NCBI RefSeq assembly: GCF_000014445.1
Contig: NC_008531.1
Location: 1,929,001-1,993,000 of the forward strand
DNA length: 64,000 nt
Source: Leuconostoc mesenteroides subsp. mesenteroides ATCC 8293
Lineage (GTDB): Bacteria > Bacillota > Bacilli > Lactobacillales > Lactobacillaceae
Reading direction: 5' to 3'
Below, one piece after another: positions 1,947 to 31,669 of this stretch. The translations under genes and the position numbers were made by a program. Below the pieces are notes generated by a model. That model saw nothing but the letters and a program-made list of their open reading frames with translations. It was not told the origin of the DNA and ran no database searches. The first letter of the stretch is position 1; the number at the start of each line of letters is the position of its first letter.

Positions 1947-3658
1947 TAAGCATCCTCCTCGGTAATCATGTCACGATAAGGCGCACCCGCATTAACCATT
2001 GGCAAAACCTTTACATCATCAGGAATAATTATTTCAATTAGTACTGACTTGTCCGATTGAAAAGCTAATTGCAAATCTTCAAGCATTCGCTCAGGCTTCT
2101 CAATTCGAACATAATTAATACCATACGCCTGTGCTAACTGATTAAATTGTGGTTGTGATTTGAAAACTGTACTAGATAATCGACCATTATAAAATAGTGT
2201 TTGCCATTGTCTCACCATTCCTAATGAATGGTTGTTCAACAATATGATCTTAATATTTAAGTCATTATCGTTTAAAATTGCTAGCTCTTCTGACGTCATT
2301 TGAAAACCGCCATCACCAACAAAAAGTACCACCTCTTTGTCCCGTCTTGCAAACTTCGCCCCAATCGCTGCCGGAATACCGTACCCCATTGTCCCCAAAC
2401 CACCGGAAGTCAACATCTGGTAATTATTCTGGAATGGATAATACTGTGCTACCCACATTTGATGTTGACCAACATCTGTGACCACAACCGCCTCACCTTT
2501 AGTAACTTTGCCAACCGCTTGAATCACTGCTTGTGGCATAATCGCTGTTTCTGACTTCTGATAGTGAAACATTGAATCTCTTTTCGCTTGACGAATACTT
2601 TCTTCCCATTTTGACGTATCTGTCATTTTGGCATTTTTAATTTCCGTCAAGATTGCATTTAACGCATCGTCAGCACTAGCATGTATAGCGTGAGCGGTTG
2701 GTAGCACTTTCCCTAATTCCGTTTCATCAATATCAATATGAGCGATGGTTGCATGTTTTGCAAAATCATCAACATTCGTAACAACACGATCATCAAATCT
2801 CGAACCAATATTTAAAACAAAGTCAGCCTGGTCAACAGCTTGATTGGCTGCTATGGATCCATGCATGCCCACCATTCCCAAAAATAGTGGGTTTTCTGAT
2901 TCAACTGCTCCGAGTCCCAATAATGTTGAAACAGTCGGTATGTGGTAGTGCTGTATAAGTATGCGTAGTAAATCTTGTGCATTTGATTTCAAAACCCCTG
3001 CCCCAGTAATAATAAGTGGCTGACGAGCTTTAGACAAAGCCGCTACTAATTGATGAATCTGAACAGCATCAACATCCGGTTTTTGCGTATCAATTTGACG
3101 TAGCCAGATATCAGCTTGACTTTCTTCAGTGTCCTTTGCCAACATCACGCTCTTTGGCAAATCAATTAACACTGGGCCCGGACGACCAGAAACAGCCACC
3201 TTAAATGCTTCTTCAACAATTAACGGCAATTCGCCAACTGTTCTAACTTGGTAACTCACCTTAGTTATTGAACTTGTAATTGACAAAATGTCTAACTCTT
3301 GAAAAGCATCTGAACCAATAGCTGCCGATCCTACTTGGCCGGATATCACAACAAGCGGTACAGAGTCACAAAACGCATCTGCTATACCAGTGACGGTATT
3401 TGTCGCTCCCGGACCAGACGTGACTAGAACAACACCTGGTTTCCCTGTAGCTTTAGCATAGCCTTCCGCAGCGTGAGCAGCTGCTTGTTCATGTCGAACA
3501 AGTATGTGCTTGATGTGCGATGATTCATATAGTGCGTCATATAGCGGTATAACAGCTCCACCAGGGTATCCAAAGAGACTATTAACACCTGCTTTCTCTA
3601 AAGAATCTAGTAGTATGTGTGCCCCATTTTTACCTTCGGTTAATACTACATTTTTCAT
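1946..3658 (-). CDS. ilvB: Acetolactate synthase large (catalytic) subunit
   Basis: ThDP enzyme condensing pyruvate with pyruvate or 2-oxobutyrate. The 570 residues show the N-terminal ThDP glutamate in LVRHEQAAAHAAEGYAK (about residue 55), a central FAD-type domain, and the C-terminal ThDP motif VGDGGFQMT followed about 25 residues later by LLNNHSLGMV. Partner IlvN overlaps immediately downstream, which favours the anabolic synthase over the catabolic AlsS. It is the first gene of the operon. A DNA region of about 310 bp containing a consensus promoter precedes it, and no leader peptide or T-box is visible there. Confidence 0.95.
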   Translation of the reverse strand: MKNVVLTEGKNGAHILLDSLEKAGVNSLFGYPGGAVIPLYDALYESSHIKHILVRHEQAAAHAAEGYAKATGKPGVVLVTSGPGATNTVTGIADAFCDSVPLVVISGQVGSAAIGSDAFQELDILSITSSITKVSYQVRTVGELPLIVEEAFKVAVSGRPGPVLIDLPKSVMLAKDTEESQADIWLRQIDTQKPDVDAVQIHQLVAALSKARQPLIITGAGVLKSNAQDLLRILIQHYHIPTVSTLLGLGAVESENPLFLGMVGMHGSIAANQAVDQADFVLNIGSRFDDRVVTNVDDFAKHATIAHIDIDETELGKVLPTAHAIHASADDALNAILTEIKNAKMTDTSKWEESIRQAKRDSMFHYQKSETAIMPQAVIQAVGKVTKGEAVVVTDVGQHQMWVAQYYPFQNNYQMLTSGGLGTMGYGIPAAIGAKFARRDKEVVLFVGDGGFQMTSEELAILNDNDLNIKIILLNNHSLGMVRQWQTLFYNGRLSSTVFKSQPQFNQLAQAYGINYVRIEKPERMLEDLQLAFQSDKSVLIEIIIPDDVKVLPMVNAGAPYRDMITEEDA

Positions 3659-3736
3659 AGCTTACTCCCTTCTTAAATTTATCAGCCACTTCGAAAATTA
3701 GTAAAATTAGATTTTGATTAACAAAGCAACAAGTGT

Positions 3737-3765: not shown

Positions 3766-3976
3766 CGTTGAAAACGGAAAAACCATGAAAAGAGAATGAT
3801 ATTAAAACTAATCATCACTTGGTACAACAGTATTTCTGAAATGAATATATAACTTTGGAATATTTAAGCCTATATAAAAACGGAATATTTTTAGTAATCA
3901 CAGCAACTAACTAATTATAAAAATGATATTCTGAATCTATAATTTCATTTATTTTTAATACAAAGGAGAGCAGTAT

Positions 3977-4768
3977 ATGACAAATAATGCTGTATTATCG
4001 ATGAAAAAGGTTTCGTTTGAACGAGACAAAATAATATTAAAAAATATTAATTGGTCTTTGCATAGAGGCGAAAATTGGGTGCTGATGGGGCTAAATGGTG
4101 CTGGAAAAACCACACTACTATCATTGATTTATGGTAATCATTGGGCAACAACCGGAAGCATAGAAGTTCTCGGAGAAACTTTTGGGAAGACAAATGTTTT
4201 AGCGTTGAAAAAACGCATTGGTCTCATTTCTACTGCCGTACAATCTCAATTTCCAGAACATCATCTAGCCCAATATATTGTATTGAGTGGAAAATTTGGT
4301 ACCATTGGTATTCACAATGATTTTGAAAAAAATGACTTGAACGAAGCCATTGGACTATTAAAGAAACTAGGCGGGGATGAGTTAATTAATAAACCTTATC
4401 GCATTCTATCCCAAGGCCAACGACAGCTGGTGCTAATTGCCAGGGCTTTGTTAGGAAAACCTGAACTGCTTATACTTGACGAACCATGTAATGGTTTAGA
4501 TTTATTCTCCCGCGAATTATTGTTGGAACAAATTAATAAGCTCGCTCAATTGCCTAATCACCCAACCTTACTATTTGTCTCCCACTACACCGAGGAAATT
4601 TTACCGATCTTTAAAAACATTATGTTGCTTAAACAAGGTGAAATTTTTGCACAGGGAACGCGTGATAAGATATTAACAGAAAACGTACTTTCTAATTTTT
4701 ATCCCAAACCCATCAAAATATTGCCCATAACTAATAATCGTTTCGCAGTATATCCAGCCGAATTATGA
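3977..4768 (+). CDS. ABC transporter ATP-binding protein (YlmA/ModF-like)
   Basis: A single ABC ATPase domain of 263 residues: Walker A GLNGAGKTT near residue 38, signature ILSQGQRQL near 145, Walker B LLILDEPCNGLD near 165, and a switch histidine in LFVSHYTEE. No permease gene adjoins it, and the signature lacks the canonical LSGGQ. Such stand-alone ATPases are commonly annotated as YlmA- or molybdate-type, but the substrate cannot be read from sequence. It is divergent from ilvB; the start has an AAAGGAGAG ribosome-binding site. The leader-peptide unit follows on the same strand. Confidence 0.85.
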   Translation: MTNNAVLSMKKVSFERDKIILKNINWSLHRGENWVLMGLNGAGKTTLLSLIYGNHWATTGSIEVLGETFGKTNVLALKKRIGLISTAVQSQFPEHHLAQYIVLSGKFGTIGIHNDFEKNDLNEAIGLLKKLGGDELINKPYRILSQGQRQLVLIARALLGKPELLILDEPCNGLDLFSRELLLEQINKLAQLPNHPTLLFVSHYTEEILPIFKNIMLLKQGEIFAQGTRDKILTENVLSNFYPKPIKILPITNNRFAVYPAEL

Positions 4769-7808: not shown

Positions 7809-8537
7809 TTATTCGGAGTCTAAACTCACGAAGGCATTATAGCGAAGATACTTATAATGTAAACGCATTGTCGAAAATTCTAGCGGTGTTCCATCATCCA
7901 TGAAGAAAATGCCTTCCATGATGCCGACTGGTTCGTTAGCAGTTAATTCTAGCAACTCTTGGTCCTCATCATTAGAAGGCTCAGCCATAATGGTCATAAA
8001 CGACTTAGTTACCGTGCGGTGCTTTGTTTTTTCGATATATTCATAAACGGATCCGGAAACTATCGTTCTGTTCAGCCCAGGCAAAACATTGATAGGTACA
8101 TAGCCTCGTTCAATCATAAATGGTACCCCTTCTAGTCGGCGTAACCGTTTAATTTCATAGACAAAATCTCCCTCGTTTAAAAAAAGGGCCTGTTGTTGTT
8201 CGGTTGTAGCCGGAATGACTTGAAAATCCAACAATTCAATGCTTGGCGCTTTTCCATCAACACGAAACGAATCAGAAACACCTAGGTTAGATCCTTCATG
8301 TTGGAAAATTGCATGGTTTTTTAGATAAAGCGGATTAACAAAGGTGCCACTGCCACGCTTTTTAAAGATAACACCTTGTTGCACCAGTACATTAAGTGCC
8401 CGTTTGATTGATGAGCGTGACACACCATATTGCTCAGCCAAAGAACGTTCGTCTGGTAATTTTAAGTTGGGAAATTCGCCCTGGTAAATTTTTTGTTTTA
8501 GATCCGCTTGTACGGTAACATAGATAGATTCTGACAT
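7809..8537 (-). CDS. GntR/HutC-family transcriptional regulator (UTRA domain)
   Basis: A 242-residue regulator when started at MSESIYVTVQADLKQKI, where GntR proteins normally begin; the longer in-frame start at 8561 would add eight residues overlapping the promoter. The winged helix covers residues about 3-68 (SLAEQYGVSRSSIKRALNVLVQQGVI), and the UTRA effector domain about 90-235. There is no Shine-Dalgarno sequence, and a TATACT box ends only about 10 nt before the ATG, so the mRNA is probably leaderless or nearly so. A GntR-type operator lies between this gene and the divergent ybaK-like gene, suggesting autoregulation. The ligand (often a sugar phosphate) is unknown. Confidence 0.88.
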   Translation of the reverse strand: MSESIYVTVQADLKQKIYQGEFPNLKLPDERSLAEQYGVSRSSIKRALNVLVQQGVIFKKRGSGTFVNPLYLKNHAIFQHEGSNLGVSDSFRVDGKAPSIELLDFQVIPATTEQQQALFLNEGDFVYEIKRLRRLEGVPFMIERGYVPINVLPGLNRTIVSGSVYEYIEKTKHRTVTKSFMTIMAEPSNDEDQELLELTANEPVGIMEGIFFMDDGTPLEFSTMRLHYKYLRYNAFVSLDSE

Positions 8538-8547
8538 AGTAATTATT

Positions 8548-8607
8548 AGTATACCACACATTGGTCAGACCAGTCATTGTATTGGTGGACCCAATTTGTG
8601 ATAAAAT
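8548..8607. promoter_or_regulatory. Divergent promoters with GntR-type operator
   Basis: The minus-strand -10 TATACT (8548-8553) serves the GntR gene and a plus-strand TGTGATAAAAT (extended -10, TAAAAT at 8602-8607) serves the deacylase gene. Between them is the odd-centre palindrome TGGTCAGACCA (8562-8572) with flanks ATTGGTC-A-GACCAGT. It resembles the TGGTCTAGACCA sites known for NagR/DasR-type HutC regulators. It sits in the spacer of the gntR promoter. Operator assignment is inference from sequence likeness. Confidence 0.6.
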
Positions 8608-8614
8608 ATTACTT

Positions 8615-9115
8615 ATGAGTAAAAAGAAAATGAAAAAAACGTTGCCCGAACAAGTCATGGACAAACACAAAGTGAAATATGAACCACTTGAACTAAATAT
8701 CTTGGATAAAACGCCAGTTCAGCGTGATGCAATCCTGGAAACGTTTCACGTGAAACATGATGACATTTATAAAACACTCGCCGCACATGGGGATAAAACT
8801 GGGCCCATTGTAGCAGTGTTACCTATCACAAAACATCTGTCACTAAAAAAGTTAGCAGCTGCATCAGGTAATAAAAAAGTGGCCATGTTACCTCTTAAAG
8901 AATTACAAAGGACGACTGGTTATATTCACGGCGCTAATAACCCTGTTGGAATCTGGCAGAACAAGCATTTCCCTATTTATTTTGATCTCAGCGCTGCTGA
9001 GCAACCTTTCATTCTTGTCAGTGGCGGCGAGTTAAGTCGTTCAGATAAAATCAATCCGCGTGATGTTGCATCATTAGTTGGTGCCGAATTTGTAGATTTA
9101 TTAGAGCATGACTGA
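8615..9115 (+). CDS. ybaK: YbaK/EbsC-family aminoacyl-tRNA deacylase (Cys-tRNA(Pro) type)
   Basis: A 166-residue YbaK-fold protein, predicted to hydrolyse mischarged tRNA (Cys-tRNAPro in characterised relatives). Family features are the DKTPVQRDAILETF start of the fold, the KTLAAHGDKTGPIVAVLP core strand, GYIHGANNPVGIW and the C-terminal LVSGGELSRSDKINPRDVASLVGAEFVDL. I place the start at MSKKKMKK. An upstream in-frame GTG would extend into the operator. The ATG falls about 8 nt after the -10 box with no ribosome-binding site, so translation is probably leaderless. The last bases overlap the next gene by 8 nt. Confidence 0.88.
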   Translation: MSKKKMKKTLPEQVMDKHKVKYEPLELNILDKTPVQRDAILETFHVKHDDIYKTLAAHGDKTGPIVAVLPITKHLSLKKLAAASGNKKVAMLPLKELQRTTGYIHGANNPVGIWQNKHFPIYFDLSAAEQPFILVSGGELSRSDKINPRDVASLVGAEFVDLLEHD

Positions 9116-23874: not shown

Positions 23875-24426
23875 TTAATTAACACCAGATCCGACAAAGC
23901 CTCTAATCAGACCGTCTACAATGTCCATTACTGGCATAATAGCATACAAAAATAGAAGAAAGCCGATGGCAATGATGATCTTTTTATTTAAAATGCTAAT
24001 CAATGAATGCCAGTTAATTTTTGTCAGAATGTAGATAATTAGAATAAACATTGGAATAGATAAATAACCAGATAGGTTAGATTCAATTAAAATCATATTC
24101 GATGAATAGAACAGTTTTAAAAATAAATAACCGATAGTTCCAACTATAATTGCACTGATTAAGCTTATCGTAACAATACGATAAAATTTGCGTTCCTGTT
24201 GATTTTCTCTTAATTTTCCGACCATCGTTTCGTCTCCTAAAAACAAATCATCTAACGATATGTTTAAGTACTTAGATATTAAAATAATATTTTCAATATC
24301 TGGCAATGTTTTACCGGTCTCCCAATTAGATATGGTTTTATTGGATACTAATAACTTATTAGCCAACTCCATTTGTGTTAAAGACATTTTTTGTCTTTTT
24401 TCCTTTATCAAATTATGAAATATCAT
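23875..24426 (-). CDS. Xre-family regulator with C-terminal membrane domain
   Basis: 183 residues from MIFHNLIKEKRQ, chosen because GGAGG lies six nt upstream; a longer frame has no ribosome-binding site. The N-terminal helix-turn-helix (QMELANKLLVSNKTISNWETGKTLPD, residues about 14-40) is followed from residue 80 by three hydrophobic segments. This layout (cytoplasmic Xre head, short membrane anchor) is common in lactic acid bacteria. Target unknown. Confidence 0.8.
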   Translation of the reverse strand: MIFHNLIKEKRQKMSLTQMELANKLLVSNKTISNWETGKTLPDIENIILISKYLNISLDDLFLGDETMVGKLRENQQERKFYRIVTISLISAIIVGTIGYLFLKLFYSSNMILIESNLSGYLSIPMFILIIYILTKINWHSLISILNKKIIIAIGFLLFLYAIMPVMDIVDGLIRGFVGSGVN

Positions 24427-24553
24427 GACTTTCCTCCTGGTCCTTGTTATGACATTAAACATAATACCCTGTCGCTATTTTAGCAATAGAAAGTCCTTAC
24501 CAATCCTTATAATATTAGGTTTCATCATGTTATTGAGAATTAACAAAATTACT

Positions 24554-24897
24554 TTAATCTAAAATTATTTCACGACTTGCTTGATTCAAACCTAAATAAG
24601 TTAAAGTCATCGCTTCACTATAATGGTTTAATAATTGCATGACAAGTCCGATATTATAGTTAGACTGCATGTAGACACGATAAATACCAATTTTTTTGAT
24701 TGTAGGTAAACGTATTTTTCTTAATCGTGACATCTGCGTTAAACACATTAGCCTTCTTTTATCATAACATCACTCACCCGTAGCAAGGTTGCTTCCCCAA
24801 CTTGAAATACGGTGTAGTTACGACATCCAGCACGAAAACTATCAAATAAGGTATTTTTAATCATTTTCAAGACATTAGAATCTTTTATGGAGTACAT
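24554..24897 (-). pseudogene. Degenerate tyrosine recombinase (integrase) remnant
   Basis: Two frames overlapping as TAATG make one broken gene. The 5' frame (24748-24897, 49 codons) reads FRAGCRNYTVFQVGEATLLRVSDVM, a core motif of tyrosine recombinases with the first catalytic Arg region. The 3' frame (24554-24748) reads RVYMQSNYNIGLVMQLLNHYSEAMTLTYLGL, the C-terminal part with the H and active-site Tyr. A third frame between them encodes VFNADVTIKKNTFTYNQK. The middle of the enzyme, including the second catalytic Arg box, is deleted and at least two frameshifts are present. It is a sign of past integration at this locus. Confidence 0.72.
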
Positions 24898-24909
24898 TTT
24901 GTTGCATAT

Positions 24910-25782
24910 TTATTTAACCTCAATAATAGGGATATCCTTGCTTGGCTTACTCTTTTCAAGGAATGACCAATTACTATTACCATAATATTTAAATGTAAAT
25001 TCTTTAATCTGAAAACTATTTTGATCTTTCGACTTATCACTGATATCTCTCAGAAAGTTAAAATATAAATGCCTCTTATTTTCATTTTCCGATAGATCTA
25101 AGAACTCAATTTTTTGTTTAAACCCAGGAGTTGTTAGGGTATTGTGCGTCTTAAATACTTCAAATGATACTAATAATTCTTCTACAATTTGACGCATAGC
25201 AGAATATAGGGGATTACCGTTAGGATAATTCCCGTTTTGATCATAGAAACCGAGTAATTGTGACTTTTTAAAATCGTCAATAGGATCTTTTTTTTCATCT
25301 ACATGTGATCCACCATCTTTATTAGCTATGAATAATACAATATCTCTACGAGAAATATATTCTGATTGTTGTGCAAACACAATTTGTTGCCACCACAGTT
25401 CCACAGGACAAAAAACTTCTGAAAGAATCTTATCAGAGCTGTCTCGACGATTATTAAATACTTCCTTACTTCCTAACGGCATGTAAGAAGCACCTTCCGC
25501 CCCAATTGACATCATCAACAGATCCCAAGAAGGCAATAAATTATTGGGAGAAAAGCTACTGTTAGGTGAATGCCAAGCTTTAAATTTATTTATTAAATCT
25601 AGTTGATTTAGTAAAGAGTTTGAATTGTAGGTTTGATGTATTAGAACGCGAACCTGTGTAGCCATTGGTAGCGCCATATCAGTTACACCAGAGTCAAACA
25701 TTTTTGCATAGTGACGAAGTAAGTCTAGCTGAACGTCTAGTTTATTATTTTTTTCCTGTATTGATAGTTTTTGTTTAGACAT
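24910..25782 (-). CDS. Hypothetical protein with NKDGGSHVD motif
   Basis: 290 residues, soluble, no signal peptide or transmembrane segment. The most striking segment is SRRDIVLFIANKDGGSHVD near residue 155, a conserved-looking acid/His motif that I associate with uncharacterised proteins but not with a known activity. The N-terminal third is helical and charged. It lies beside the integrase remnant and has low GC, as expected for an acquired gene. A defence role is possible but there is no direct evidence. Confidence 0.55.
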   Translation of the reverse strand: MSKQKLSIQEKNNKLDVQLDLLRHYAKMFDSGVTDMALPMATQVRVLIHQTYNSNSLLNQLDLINKFKAWHSPNSSFSPNNLLPSWDLLMMSIGAEGASYMPLGSKEVFNNRRDSSDKILSEVFCPVELWWQQIVFAQQSEYISRRDIVLFIANKDGGSHVDEKKDPIDDFKKSQLLGFYDQNGNYPNGNPLYSAMRQIVEELLVSFEVFKTHNTLTTPGFKQKIEFLDLSENENKRHLYFNFLRDISDKSKDQNSFQIKEFTFKYYGNSNWSFLEKSKPSKDIPIIEVK

Positions 25783-25821
25783 ATAAGCCCTCCACTTCGA
25801 GGATTATTATATCATTTAACT

Positions 25822-25866
25822 AAAAAACAACCCCTATACTCAACAATCAGAGTATAGGGGTTGTTT
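25822..25866 (-). terminator. Terminator after the immunity-like gene
   Basis: A 15-bp stem, AACAACCCCTATACT with its complement ending GGGGTTGTT, 10-nt loop, T-run on the minus strand. Confidence 0.85.
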
Positions 25867-25921
25867 TAACGGGTTTTTCGAGGGGTTATTTTTTTGAATA
25901 GCCCCTAAATTTGGTATAAAC

Positions 25922-27648: not shown

Positions 27649-27810
27649 ATGAAGAAGTGGTATGAAGAGAAACAACATAAAGACATGTTATTTTATGGCG
27701 CTATGATGTTAATGGTTATCAGTCCATTTTTAGAGGGGTTCGGGATAATTACATCAATGTTAGCAGTATTTATTGCTTTTTATAGTACTGACGATGATGA
27801 CGAGTCTTAA
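27649..27810 (+). CDS. 53-residue membrane protein
   Basis: ATG after a GGGGGAAG ribosome-binding site encodes a basic N-terminus (MKKWYEEKQHKD), one or two hydrophobic segments (residues about 13-45) and an acidic tail DDDDES. It is transcribed towards the cassette that ends at 27952, and a TATGAT box is at 27604-27609. The DNA just after its stop is similar to DNA downstream of the second cassette (29746 onwards). Function unknown; an immunity-like or toxin-like peptide are both possible. Confidence 0.5.
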   Translation: MKKWYEEKQHKDMLFYGAMMLMVISPFLEGFGIITSMLAVFIAFYSTDDDDES

Positions 27811-27925
27811 TTGTCCATATAAGGCTGTTAGATACGTTTTATAGTGTTCATTCATAATTTATATTAAATTATATTTATAACGCCTTAGGATTGATCGTAT
27901 TAACAAAAATTTTACTGTAGACACA

Positions 27926-27952
27926 TAAAAAGCCCACAAATTAATGTGAGCT
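27926..27952 (-). terminator. Terminator of secreted-protein cassette B
   Basis: On the minus strand AGCTCACA pairs with TGTGGGCT and is followed by TTTTTATG; it begins at the stop codon of the small membrane gene. The same hairpin ends cassette A at 29849-29874. Confidence 0.75.
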
Positions 27953-28125
27953 TATTTTTTACCTTTTTTATCCAGCTTTTTTATAACATAAGAACTAGTG
28001 AATCCAATAGAAAAGTATAGAATAGTCCAAAGCCAAAGCAATTTAGGATAATTACTATACAGTATTCTCAGTGGAATCATTAAAATAGCAACTGGAATCA
28101 TTACCTGTAATAAAGTTTTTTTCAT
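27952..28125 (-). CDS. 57-residue membrane protein, candidate immunity partner (cassette B)
   Basis: Starts MKKTLLQVMIPVAILMIPLR and ends with a very basic tail (VIKKLDKKGKK). Two hydrophobic segments (about 4-22 and 28-47). The start lies 22 bp after the stop of the secreted-protein gene, with AAAGGATG about 10 nt upstream, and the gene ends in the cassette terminator. The other cassette has a membrane protein of the same size and position but with little sequence similarity. That pattern (similar effector, divergent small partner) is what one expects of immunity proteins. Role is inference. Confidence 0.6.
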   Translation of the reverse strand: MKKTLLQVMIPVAILMIPLRILYSNYPKLLWLWTILYFSIGFTSSYVIKKLDKKGKK

Positions 28126-28147
28126 ATATTACAATTACATCCTTTGC

Positions 28148-28981
28148 TTATTCACAATAAGTCAAATTTCCATGCTTGTAAATACCTATCCAACCATTTC
28201 CGTTGCCATCAAATAGAGAAGCTAATCTGGTACCGGGATTTGCTAGTGTTGCCAAATATCCAATACTAAATCCTGCAGTGTTAGCCACAGCGGAACTTGC
28301 AGCACTAGCTGTGATTCCTAAAGCACCAGCAATTACCTCAGGCAAAACAGCAACTATAGCCGCAGCAGTAAGCCCACAAACAGCTGTATCTACAGTATAT
28401 GCAAAGAATCTGGCGCCTATAGCTACGCCTGTATAATGCCAAAAACTACTAGCAACAGCCTCAGTGCCATTATTATTAGCTAAGTCAAATACATGTGTTT
28501 CTGTTGTATACTTCGCCGTTTCTGAATCAAACGTTGTCTTAATAACAGTTAATTGAACACCATTATTAATTACTGACACATCAGTTTTAGATTCAGAATC
28601 TGAGACTTTAATACCAGAAACTTTTTGAGTTTCAGTATTAATAGCAGTTTCAATTTCTGCTGAATCTACCTTTTTTGTACTAGTAGTTACATCATCAGAA
28701 TTAGAAATTTGATTAAATGAATTATCTGCTTTATTAGTGCTTTCAGTAGATGTCTTAACAATTCCAGAATCTTTTTGTGTTTGTTTGTGAGTATACTCAC
28801 CATTCTCAGACACAGCTCTTTTTTCCGCTTGTTTTAACGTTGTAGCTTTAGAACCGCTGTAATTCCCCTTAGCTAGTTCGTTAGCACTTACGTTATAAAA
28901 GCTTGAAATACTTGGAGCTGTTGCAGTTACAATAGTTCCAGCAGCAATTAAACCTGCTGTTAATTTTAATGCTTTATTCAT
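28148..28981 (-). CDS. Secreted protein with variable C-terminus, candidate antimicrobial (cassette B)
   Basis: 277 residues. Signal peptide MNKALKLTAGLIAAGTIVTA with likely cleavage after VSA near residue 33. Then a Lys/Glu-rich block (ELAKGNYSGSKATTLKQAEK, ENGEYTHKQTQKD), a Ser/Thr/Asp-rich spacer (about 75-165), and a hydrophobic Gly/Ala-rich region (about 175-255: YTGVAIGARFFAY, AAAIVAVLPEVIAGALGITA). The end is GNGNGWIGIYKHGNLTYCE. The paralogue at 30096-30953 shares the first 70 residues almost fully and diverges later. The layout resembles a secreted protein with a membrane-inserting C-terminal domain. I know no named family. Confidence 0.65.
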   Translation of the reverse strand: MNKALKLTAGLIAAGTIVTATAPSISSFYNVSANELAKGNYSGSKATTLKQAEKRAVSENGEYTHKQTQKDSGIVKTSTESTNKADNSFNQISNSDDVTTSTKKVDSAEIETAINTETQKVSGIKVSDSESKTDVSVINNGVQLTVIKTTFDSETAKYTTETHVFDLANNNGTEAVASSFWHYTGVAIGARFFAYTVDTAVCGLTAAAIVAVLPEVIAGALGITASAASSAVANTAGFSIGYLATLANPGTRLASLFDGNGNGWIGIYKHGNLTYCE

Positions 28982-29026
28982 GTATTTTCTCCCCCATGAA
29001 TAATATTTTTATAAGCATGGATACTA

Positions 29027-29055
29027 TTTAAACATGAATGATAAACGTATGTCAA
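29027..29055 (-). promoter_or_regulatory. Promoter of cassette B
   Basis: Minus strand TTGACA (29050-29055), 17 nt, TTTAAA (29027-29032), followed by ATCCATGCTTATAAAAA and a GGGGGAG ribosome-binding site. Nearly identical sequence lies upstream of cassette A, and a third copy at 31641-31669. Confidence 0.65.
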
Positions 29056-29136
29056 CACATTTTGTGAAATTGATTACTTTTAATATAAAAAGCCCCTACT
29101 TAATTGTAGAGGTTTTATAGTTACTAATATACGCAT

Positions 29137-29646
29137 TTATTTCTTAATTTCCATTGTCTTACCGCAGTTTAAACAGACAAATGTGTTTTTCTTTCCCTTC
29201 TTACCAGCAAATCCAACTGCACCACCCGCAATGAATCCTAATCCACCAGTCATAACACCTAATCCAACTGAACCAGCTACCGACTTACCAAATGAATATT
29301 TCTTTGAGTTGTCACCAGCTAATTGGAACTCATGACCACCGCACTTCTTGCATGTTAATTTATTTTGCTCTTGTAGTTTAGCCTCATGTTCTTGTTGCTT
29401 AATTTCACGTTCGGCTTGTTTTTCTTCTTTAATTTCTGCTACAGCTTGTTTTAGATCTGTATCAGCTGTTATACCTAAACGCTCACGCTTTAATGTATCA
29501 AGGGCATACTTACTGGCTTCAGGGTTTTTGAATCCCCATTTCCCAGATTCCCAAATCGACATTGCGTTATATTCGTCCCAATTAAAGTTTAGACGTTCTT
29601 CTGTTTCTAAGCTCCGATATTCAATTGCTGGTGTTTGTTGCGCCAT
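29137..29646 (-). CDS. Zinc-ribbon protein with coiled coil and glycine-rich segment
   Basis: 169 residues. An N-terminal aspartate/glutamate-rich part with WESGKWGFKNPEASKYAL is followed by a charged coiled coil (about 65-97, EIKEEKQAEREIKQQEHEAKL without exact heptads). Then come a first zinc half-site CKKCGGHEF, a Gly-rich hydrophobic segment (about 122-148, GSVGLGVMTGGLGFIAGGAVGF) and the second half-site CLNCGK. The two CxxC pairs flank the hydrophobic segment, an uncommon insertion within a zinc ribbon. It sits between the two cassettes, with its own terminator hairpin at about 29088-29116. Function unknown. Confidence 0.6.
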   Translation of the reverse strand: MAQQTPAIEYRSLETEERLNFNWDEYNAMSIWESGKWGFKNPEASKYALDTLKRERLGITADTDLKQAVAEIKEEKQAEREIKQQEHEAKLQEQNKLTCKKCGGHEFQLAGDNSKKYSFGKSVAGSVGLGVMTGGLGFIAGGAVGFAGKKGKKNTFVCLNCGKTMEIKK

Positions 29647-29848
29647 TGGTTTTCCTCTTTTTCTTCTAAGTGTACTCTACTATATTAATTTTTATAATAA
29701 TCAAACTAAATTAACACAAAAATACGATCTACATAGACAAATATCTTTAATTTTCCATATAAGGGCCATACAATTTTTTAAGGCATTATAGTAATTTTTA
29801 TAACGCCTGAAAATTGATTATATTGAAAAAAATTCCAATATAGACACA

Positions 29849-29874
29849 AAAAAGCCCACAAATTAATGTGAGCT
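29849..29874 (-). terminator. Terminator of secreted-protein cassette A
   Basis: AGCTCACA with TGTGGGCT and six T on the minus strand, the same hairpin as at 27926-27952, 17 bp after the small membrane gene. Confidence 0.75.
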
Positions 29875-29890
29875 CACCAGTAAATGGCAT

Positions 29891-30079
29891 TTATTTATCA
29901 TTTTTTCTGAAATATTTATCACTAATAAAATTAACTATAGGCGATAAAATTACAAAACCAACCACCATGTAAACAATATCCCAAAACCAAAACGGTGTGC
30001 CTAACATATCAGGGAACTTTTTTAAGATATATGACAATATAGATATCACAATAAAATTTTCGAATAAATGATTTTTCAA
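29891..30079 (-). CDS. 62-residue membrane protein, candidate immunity partner (cassette A)
   Basis: TTG start (30077-30079) with GGGG about 10 nt upstream; 16 bp after the secreted-protein stop. Two hydrophobic segments (about 8-20 and 28-50) and a basic tail DKYFRKNDK. It has the position, size and topology of the 27952-28125 protein but little sequence identity. The partner/immunity role is inferred from context only. Confidence 0.6.
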   Translation of the reverse strand: MKNHLFENFIVISILSYILKKFPDMLGTPFWFWDIVYMVVGFVILSPIVNFISDKYFRKNDK

Positions 30080-30095
30080 AATGATATACCCCTAT

Positions 30096-30953
30096 TTATT
30101 GAGTCATATAAACAGAATCACCCGTTCTATCCGTTTTTGAATATACTCCAACCCAACCATTTCCATTTTTATCTAAGTTATATGCTATATAAGTACCAGG
30201 ATTAAGTTTTTGGGATGCATAACCAAAACCACCTGCTAAAGAATATTGTTGAATCTTATTAACTGTGCTCACAGAAACACCTAAAGCACCAGCAACAACG
30301 CGTGGTAGAGCGATAAACGCAGCTCTACCAGTTAATCCAGAAATACCTAAGTCAATTGCTGTAGCTAGGACATCACGACCTACAGCAATTCCAGTGTATG
30401 AAAAATACCCATAAGCTACATTAGTTGCAGAACCATCATTATTGGCTATATTCAAATCAAACAATCTTTGTTCCGTAGTATACTTACCAGTGTTTTCATC
30501 GAATGTAGTCTTGTCTACTGTCAAATGTTGCCCATCATTCATAACAGTTACAGTTGTATTATCTTCTGAATTAGTAACCTTAACACCTGCTACCTTATTA
30601 TCTTCATCAGTAGTGGCAGTTGTTACTTGTACATCTCCTGCTGACTCAGATTCTACGGTTGTCTCTGATGAATCAGCAACTTGATTAAACTTTTCCTCAG
30701 CTACATCAGTATTTTCATTAGAAGTTTTCACTACTTTAGCATCTTTTTGCGTTTGTTTGTGAGTATACTCACCATTTTCAGACACTGCTCTTTTTTCAGC
30801 CTGTTTTAACGTTGTAGCTTTAGAACTGCTGTAATTCCCCTTAGCTAGTTCGTTAGCACTTACGTTATAAAAGCTTGAAATACTTGGAGTTGTTGCAGTT
30901 AAAATAGTTCCAGCAGCAATTAAACCTGCTGTTAACTTTAATGCTTTATTCAT
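30096..30953 (-). CDS. Secreted protein with variable C-terminus, candidate antimicrobial (cassette A)
   Basis: 285 residues, paralogous to 28148-28981. Signal peptide and the block to about residue 70 are almost identical; the middle is recognisably related (TTFDENTGKYTTEQRLFDL against TTFDSETAKYTTETHVFDL). The C-terminal hydrophobic part shares only a framework: YTGIAVG, ALPRVVAGALGVS, NPGT, and GNGWVGVY. The end differs (SKTDRTGDSVYMTQ). Greatest divergence in the C-terminus suggests diversifying specificity there. Start: ATG with GGGGGAG nine nt upstream. Confidence 0.65.
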   Translation of the reverse strand: MNKALKLTAGLIAAGTILTATTPSISSFYNVSANELAKGNYSSSKATTLKQAEKRAVSENGEYTHKQTQKDAKVVKTSNENTDVAEEKFNQVADSSETTVESESAGDVQVTTATTDEDNKVAGVKVTNSEDNTTVTVMNDGQHLTVDKTTFDENTGKYTTEQRLFDLNIANNDGSATNVAYGYFSYTGIAVGRDVLATAIDLGISGLTGRAAFIALPRVVAGALGVSVSTVNKIQQYSLAGGFGYASQKLNPGTYIAYNLDKNGNGWVGVYSKTDRTGDSVYMTQ

Positions 30954-30998
30954 GTATTTTCTCCCCCATGGATAATATTTTTATAAGCATGGATACTA

Positions 30999-31027
30999 TT
31001 TAAACATGAATGATAAACGTATGTCAA
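30999..31027 (-). promoter_or_regulatory. Promoter of cassette A
   Basis: Minus strand TTGACA (31022-31027), 17 nt, TTTAAA (30999-31004), with downstream repeats of the type ATNCATGNTTA at 17-21 bp spacing shared with cassette B. The repeats could be regulator boxes. Confidence 0.65.
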
Positions 31028-31096
31028 CAGTTTTTGTGAAATCAATTACTTTTTTATATATAAAAAGCACCCTTTGGGTCATAGAGATTTTTTGAA

Positions 31097-31465
31097 TTAA
31101 ATTCCAGGTAATTTATTTTCTAGTTGATATGTTTGTGTTAAATACTTGGCAATTGGGTATAAGTCATCAATGTACATAATTGCCAAACCATTTAATACCT
31201 TAATAATAATTACATCATTAACATTTTTAAATATTTCTGGCTCTATTTTCTGATAAAATGCTTTAAAATCAGCTATGGTATATTGACTAATGTCATTATT
31301 ATGTACTAACATATGTGTTCTTGTTAATACATTGGAAAAAGTTTCCTCAGTACCTCCAAGGTCTTGTATAACAAGTGCTATTGACACTGGTCTTATATAC
31401 GAATCCCCTAGAAATGTTGCCATTTCCATTAATATTTGTCCTTGTAATCTAACATCTTCAAACAT
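31097..31465 (-). CDS. Hypothetical protein behind the third cassette-type promoter
   Basis: 122 residues, soluble, mostly helical (MFEDVRLQGQILMEMATFL start). No recognised domain. It follows directly a 24-codon ATG frame (31466-31540) whose own ribosome-binding site is too close to be convincing. The transcript would start at the cassette-type promoter at 31641-31669, leaving a 5' region of about 170 nt where the secreted-protein gene is absent. It may be what remains of a third cassette or an unrelated gene that captured the promoter. Confidence 0.55.
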   Translation of the reverse strand: MFEDVRLQGQILMEMATFLGDSYIRPVSIALVIQDLGGTEETFSNVLTRTHMLVHNNDISQYTIADFKAFYQKIEPEIFKNVNDVIIIKVLNGLAIMYIDDLYPIAKYLTQTYQLENKLPGI

Positions 31466-31640
31466 TTATATACCCCCAATTAATAAGCTAATATTACACT
31501 TTAACCCACTTGCAATACCGCGATGCTTGTTATCTTCCATACTTCCTTGCAAACCTCTAAATTTTGAAATCTAAAGGCTGTATTCTGCACTATGTTCACA
31601 ATATTTTCACATAATTCATTTTTTTATAAACATGAATACT

Positions 31641-31669
31641 ATTAAACCTCAATGGTAAACGTTTGTCAA
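31641..31669 (-). promoter_or_regulatory. Third copy of the cassette promoter
   Basis: Minus strand TTGACA (31664-31669), 17 nt, TTTAAT (31641-31646), then AGTATTCATGTTTATAAAAA, recognisably the cassette A/B promoter with several substitutions. Confidence 0.6.

Follow-up and report, generated by a model that had tools for sequence, protein, structure and literature searches.

Two duplicated cassettes of Leuconostoc mesenteroides probably encode large Sec-secreted bacteriocins with small membrane immunity proteins

We analysed a 64,000-nucleotide (nt) stretch of the 2.08 Mb genome of Leuconostoc mesenteroides subsp. mesenteroides ATCC 8293 (NC_008531.1, positions 1,929,001 to 1,993,000; within our contig C2), hereafter the window. 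It contains two related cassettes, each made up of a conserved upstream element, a gene for a large secreted-type protein (A in unit 1, B in unit 2), a gene for a small membrane protein that begins 16-22 nt downstream of it (partners a and b) and a terminator-like hairpin (Table 1). The sequences and the behaviour of their relatives lead us to believe that each cassette is probably a pair consisting of a Sec-secreted bacteriocin and a membrane immunity protein.

Over 402 nt of upstream and N-terminal coding DNA the two units are 89% identical (E 6e-154), and 68 of the first 71 residues of A and B are the same. This bore out a preliminary description of the locus, made from the DNA letters, which had reported two cassettes with near-identical N-termini. 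It had also given both units the same terminator, and this held: the hairpin AGCTCACATTAATTTGTGGGCTT is present in each, the terminator regions are 84% identical over 82 nt, and the stretches holding the hairpins had folding z-scores of -4.0 and -4.5. Its term 'tandem' needs a correction, in that an unrelated gene lies between the units. The common promoter that it proposed fared similarly. The upstream DNA is conserved at both sites, and the pattern that describes it, which was derived from the very sites it reports, had a mean of 0.00 in shuffles; but a consensus promoter scan gave 16 matches, compared with 19.6 in shuffles, and listed neither site. Thus, 'promoter' is only a reading of conserved upstream DNA.

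Table 1. Positions of the cassette features and of two neighbouring features in the window
Feature	Position	Strand	Basis or remark
Unit 2 conserved upstream (promoter-like) copy	30997..31027	-	TTGACATACGTTTATCATTCATGTTTAAATA; pattern search
Unit 2 secreted-type protein B, 285 aa (amino acids), candidate bacteriocin	30096..30953	-	signal-like N-terminus, constant 1-71, beta domain, C-terminal domain from ~184
Unit 2 small membrane protein b, 62 aa, TTG start, candidate immunity	29891..30079	-	sequence; sister-genome retention
Unit 2 terminator-like hairpin	29852..29875	-	pattern and folding
Unit 1 conserved upstream (promoter-like) copy	29025..29055	-	pattern search
Unit 1 secreted-type protein A, 277 aa, candidate bacteriocin	28148..28981	-	C-terminal domain from ~residue 181
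Unit 1 small membrane protein a, 57 aa, candidate immunity	27952..28125	-	65% identity to L. rapi partner
Unit 1 terminator-like hairpin	27930..27953	-	pattern and folding
Third upstream-element copy, ahead of 122-aa gene (31097-31465)	31639..31669	-	pattern search
169-aa zinc-ribbon-like gene, between units, unrelated to cassettes	29137..29646	-	phrog_6837 match E 2e-42

Proteins A and B are larger than 10 kDa, have a hydrophobic segment inside residues 4-28 and lack a double-glycine leader. These features had been noted before and are plain in the sequence; export is predicted from them. Beyond the N-terminus the two proteins diverge, with 49 of 109 aligned residues identical in the middle region (45%) and 37 of 98 in the C-terminal domain (38%). 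The C-termini had been described as diverging. They are diverged, but the alignment indicates that they are still homologous, and both end in the motif D.NGNGW[IV]G[IV]Y. We modelled protein A with AlphaFold2 from a 20-sequence alignment (predicted local distance difference test, pLDDT, 73; predicted template modelling score, pTM, 0.69), and B only via its homologue A. Residues 1-72 were of low confidence and modelled as disordered, and residues 73-166 formed a beta domain with pLDDT mostly above 90. The C-terminal domain (~181-277) comprised a single strand, helices that are hydrophobic and rich in Gly and Ala, and closing strands, which bear the conserved motifs YT..A and D.N.NGW[IV]. A model of an enterococcal relative, P0020 (pLDDT 70, pTM 0.63), had the same core order as A: a strand (79-86), four helices and two further strands (147-156 and 162-169). 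As a guess, the D.N.NGW loop may resemble a calcium-binding loop.

The two window partners share 18 of 53 aligned residues (34%), with an alignment score that beat all 1000 shuffles (z 6.8). These values suggest that the partners are diverged homologues, and the earlier view that they are non-homologous has to be given up. We called membrane segments by a simple hydropathy scan alone. In each window partner a single segment exceeded 1.5, and another exceeded 1.2 but not 1.5, so that the 'two-helix' label stands on one clear segment and one weaker one; the partner from Leuconostoc rapi had two segments above 1.5.

The comparison with L. rapi indicates that the C-terminal domain and the partner vary together. 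Between cassette 1 and L. rapi the C-terminal domains are 53% identical and the partners 65%, compared with 38% and 34% between cassettes 1 and 2. The L. rapi partner is 37% identical to partner b. The middle region follows a different pattern, as that of protein A is 45% identical to protein B and 34% to L. rapi, and the N-terminus of A is likewise nearly the same as that of B. This co-variation between L. rapi and the window cassettes is based on three pairs only. Across 18 pairs, partner similarity had a rank correlation of 0.68 with the C-terminal domain and 0.61 with the region before it; the partial rank correlations were 0.41 for the C-terminal domain given the pre-domain region and 0.16 for the reverse. 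Thus, the L. rapi comparison is the strongest single item, and the wider test, with its moderate co-variation, simply agrees with it.

Relatives of the secreted proteins were sought in three protein searches, which yielded 4, 6 and 22 overlapping matches. Those with a named source came from Lactococcus and Enterococcus, and the matches carried no precomputed Pfam domain. A family profile had matches in 22 of the 395 Lactobacillales genomes searched (E 0.01; a count that includes the window's own genome and some weak matches). In separate sets it had matches in 8 of 15 genomes of one Enterococcus genus and in 2 of 19 genomes of the window's genus. A phylum-wide draw of 398 genomes yielded the own genome alone. 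When 72,556 plasmid records were searched by tblastn with a 170-residue enterococcal member, 151 matched at E 0.1. Every one of these is from Enterococcus, and 131 of the matches span at least 80% of the query. The enterococcal core motif is W..W.YT.IA ... PG..VA..WD.N.NGW[IV]GFY...GY...G..VAT.Y.T, of which YT, D and NGW are kept in the Leuconostoc and Lactococcus members.

A secreted gene counted as intact when its frame was open and encoded both a hydrophobic segment at the N-terminus and the C-terminal motif. The gene after it encodes a small membrane protein at all 12 intact chromosomal loci, two in the window and ten found by genome searches (L013, L014, L015, L016, L017, L019, L021, L034, L082 and L083), and seven inspected plasmid loci have the same order. 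The partners are 57-79 residues long, apart from one subgroup of 117-124 residues with about four segments. The preliminary description had named its own refutation, namely small membrane genes not conserved beside the secreted genes in homologous loci, or C-termini that do not vary with the partners. The membrane gene proved to be conserved and the L. rapi C-terminus and partner co-vary, so that the outcome favours the description. The effector/immunity pattern that it had recognised also stands as regards a constant N-terminus, a variable C-terminus and a membrane partner, all supported by relatives, but not as regards partners that are unrelated to each other.

The C-terminal domain is found on different carriers, namely the window proteins, short enterococcal Sec-type proteins and, in Listeria grandensis, a 799-residue repeat protein that it closes and that is followed by a gene for 78 residues. 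This last protein has a weak fn3 match, below the cut-off, and together with the well-modelled beta domain of the large protein it could suggest a secreted surface or adhesion protein that cooperates with the small membrane protein as export helper, anchor or sensor, instead of a toxin with its immunity protein. We consider this unlikely, because the fate of the partner genes argues against it.

A helper should decay with its client. The partner frame was open at 16 of the 17 scorable loci with a broken or reduced secreted gene (L012, L018, L020, L022, L024, L025, L026, L027, L029, L036, L037, L040, L084, L081, which is L. rapi, L078 and L079); L078 and L079 were found through partner searches, and without them the less biased count is 14 of 15. 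Some of the reduced secreted genes are 22-35 codons near the gene end, and in L012, L018, L084 and L. rapi the open frame covers the body but leaves out the signal-peptide part. The reverse, an intact secreted gene with a missing partner, was found at none of the 12 intact loci. In addition, the partner was kept twice after clean deletions in Leuconostoc. The sister genome G054 lacks window positions 30173-30966 at the same chromosomal site, with flanks of 93.6% and 95.7% identity. What is left is about the last 26 codons of the secreted gene, the partner gene and, now some 0.1 kb ahead of it, the upstream element. In this 325-nt block the partner differs at 0 of 189 nt, compared with 8 of 77 in the remnant of the secreted gene and 6 of 59 in the remainder (14 of 136 in all adjoining DNA), a pattern that fits selection on the partner alone. 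G136 has the same kind of deletion relative to L. rapi. Its partner and the L. rapi partner are set apart by 11 synonymous and four non-synonymous changes (non-synonymous rate, dN, 0.032; synonymous rate, dS, 0.453), and some of this divergence may be older than the deletion.

These retained genes also bear on the idea of a lysis or holin-type cassette, in which the small protein is active and the large protein modulates it. The size and layout of the cassettes resemble small holins, and the cassette at locus L043 (genome G407) lies, by eye, amid phage-type genes and may be prophage-borne. A small gene that kills should be harmful when retained alone, in G054 close behind the upstream element, and a search of PHROG with the small protein gave only weak matches, with no holin among them. 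We therefore regard a holin-type cassette as very improbable.

Plasmid cargo points again to a pair of bacteriocin and immunity protein. In the Enterococcus faecium plasmid p53_1_6.3kb, a pair of 177 and 67 residues lies between the rep-side genes and mobC. Plasmid pBP5067_P4 has the same gene order, with backbone identities of 83% and 93% in the alignment. The large segment that is not homologous holds the window-family pair in the former. In the latter it holds two genes, one annotated as a class II bacteriocin, which has a YGNG motif, and one as a bacteriocin immunity protein. Such a swap on one plasmid backbone is not what would be expected of a surface protein with its helper. The pediocin-like class IIa pair of pBP5067_P4 shares the cargo slot with the enterococcal member but is unrelated to it in sequence, with a 74-residue peptide and a 95-residue immunity protein that has no obvious membrane segment by eye. 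Mobilisation genes of the p53_1_6.3kb type occur in 397 records. Among the five inspected plasmids, two carry a window-family pair, one the class II pair and one an LsbB-family leaderless bacteriocin.

Frequent plasmid carriage, the two-gene layout and the orphan partners would also suit an intracellular toxin-antitoxin (addiction) module, whose export would be incidental and whose orphan partners would be anti-addiction genes. We think that there is little chance of this, because the members scored as intact have a signal-like N-terminus (a segment that the scoring as intact itself required) and because the partner is of the membrane type.

Returning to the bacteriocin and immunity pair, we propose a model for how the cassettes may work. 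The large protein would be exported by Sec, as its signal-like N-terminus suggests. Its N-terminal part would present or carry the protein, and its C-terminal domain would attack the envelope of related bacteria, most likely via hydrophobic helices that insert in the cytoplasmic membrane. Membrane damage is probably the mode of action, to judge from these helices. The small protein would sit in the producer's membrane and stop the insertion or attack step. The C-terminal domain and the immunity gene would tend toward joint inheritance as one module, and duplication followed by C-terminal divergence would have given the host two specificities and two immunities behind near-identical upstream DNA. 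We also hypothesize, with less confidence but still on balance in favour, that Lactobacillales possess a family of Sec-exported bacteriocins defined by a membrane-attacking C-terminal domain of ~95 residues, possibly with a new fold, which is swapped together with a small intramembrane immunity gene among secreted and surface-repeat carriers. Sister species that keep the immunity gene alone after deletion of the toxin gene would then record past encounters.

Several points weigh against the reading of the cassettes as pairs of bacteriocin and immunity protein. We infer killing, immunity and membrane action alike from sequence and genetics. Pfam, NCBIfam and PDB sequences gave no family match for the secreted proteins, and no convincing fold match was found among solved and viral structures, so that the assignment of a function rests on the genetics. 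Large parts of the window proteins' N-terminal and beta regions have no counterpart in the enterococcal proteins; the 'constant delivery part' of the preliminary description is thus valid only among close relatives. Among 11 enterococcal-type two-helix pairs, the C-terminal domain and the partner co-vary weakly (rho 0.26, p 0.09). The decayed locus L023 has no recognisable partner, and two partner frames are altered, L040 with 63 residues (78 in its neighbour) and L084 extended to 119. Decay counts alone are only moderate evidence, since the toxin gene has some three times the length of the partner gene (about 3:1), which favours breaks there, and remnants beside a partner are easiest to find, which biases the counts. 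The partner of G054, without even a synonymous change, could owe its identity to recent recombination. Last, the fifth inspected plasmid carries a gene for a C47 peptidase, and no bacteriocin is annotated on it.

The preliminary description had stated that the proteins fit no bacteriocin class. This was too strong, since large, Sec-secreted, non-lytic bacteriocins are recognised as class IIIb (PMC10086258, PMC6606811). This class of 'large non-bacteriolytic proteins' includes dysgalacticin, streptococcin A-M57, corynicin JK and enterococcin V583 (PMC10086258). Enterococcin V583, which is the same as EF1097, enterocin O16 and EntV, is described as a 170-residue prepropeptide whose active part is the C-terminal 68 residues, and a disulfide is required for its antifungal activity (PMC6606811). 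The window proteins are likewise large and have a Sec-type signal, with C-terminal activity known there and presumed here. They differ in that protein B has no cysteine to form such a disulfide. Protein A has two (202 and 276), and of the 17 relatives examined P0005 and P0006 are the only ones with a pair of cysteines, one of those in P0006 lying in the signal region. No PDB chain matched the family profile below E 0.9, and the named members of class IIIb were compared by description only. The window proteins would work like class IIIb bacteriocins as far as can be inferred, but a sequence link to them was not found in PDB sequences, Pfam or NCBIfam.

Bacteriocin 51, encoded by E. faecium pHY, is reportedly a Sec-type bacteriocin with a small immunity protein of two transmembrane segments, and is said to be a relative of lactococcin 972. 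Its likeness to the cassettes would lie in this combination of a Sec-type protein and a small partner with two transmembrane segments. The Pfam domain of lactococcin 972, which we take to be PF09683, was absent from A, B, P0004, P0005, P0007, P0009 and the 17 members of alignment A7. A review places bacteriocin 51 on a 6.0-kb mobilizable plasmid and gives its spectrum (PMC8532689).

The Sec-type N-termini set the window proteins apart from class II double-glycine bacteriocins, and a search for a dedicated ATP-binding cassette (ABC) exporter found no open reading frame (ORF) longer than 290 residues between 23.9 and 31.8 kb. Polymorphic toxins offer another likeness, as they too have a C-terminal domain on varied carriers and a presumed immunity gene directly downstream. 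They differ in that no known trafficking domain was found here and the carriers are mostly short Sec-type proteins. Literature searches, which were mostly aimed at named bacteriocins, found no paper naming the window family, and it is apparently unnamed. Its members are annotated as 'hypothetical protein' in the inspected records. If our reading is right, an antibacterial family present on many public Enterococcus plasmid records and in food bacteria has been missed by the family libraries searched. It would provide a defined toxin domain together with the immunity gene that matches it, as well as relatives in which the toxin is naturally deleted, and would make killing specificity, immunity by very small proteins and toxin-immunity co-evolution directly testable in food bacteria.

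The surroundings of the cassettes are AT-rich. GC content is 29-34% at 24-32 kb and rises to 36-39% in the flanking 4 kb on each side; values of 33-36% also occur in some windows between 38 and 54 kb. The DNA at 24000-25900 is plasmid-like. At 24000-24550 it is 85-87% identical to a helix-turn-helix (HTH) regulator stretch of Leuconostoc plasmids. Positions 24763-25891 match, at 83% identity, part of an L. plantarum plasmid that bears the annotations hypothetical protein and site-specific integrase. Several short, decayed-looking ORFs lie in 24000-25900. A longer upstream-element pattern, searched in the own genome with up to three mismatches, found only the third copy, and the 122-residue gene behind it is without a family match.

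Other loci gave hints of related systems. One E. hirae plasmid (L010 376-1581; L003 8964-9434) carries an LMxysn_1693-family gene followed by an annotated CPBP endopeptidase gene and a 54-residue gene, and also bears a member of the window family. The N-terminus of P0009 matches this family (NF046016) at E 5e-7 and 29.7 bits, for a curated cut-off of 70 bits, and A and B are unmatched by it. The LMxysn_1693 family may be bacteriocin-like too. At L049, from a metagenome-assembled genome (MAG) of Streptococcaceae, secreted-type proteins with differing C-termini are encoded at 569-1512, 2753-3733, 3881-4416 and 7845-8767, each with a small membrane gene behind it. The domain of the window family is found only at 3881-4213, without a signal part, and two other proteins of the array have no Pfam or NCBIfam match. 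This array suggests further families of the same layout. Last, at L012 a second partner-type gene (2441-2683; 66-80 residues) lies alone downstream of the cassette and resembles the E. faecalis partner, and is possibly an orphan immunity gene.

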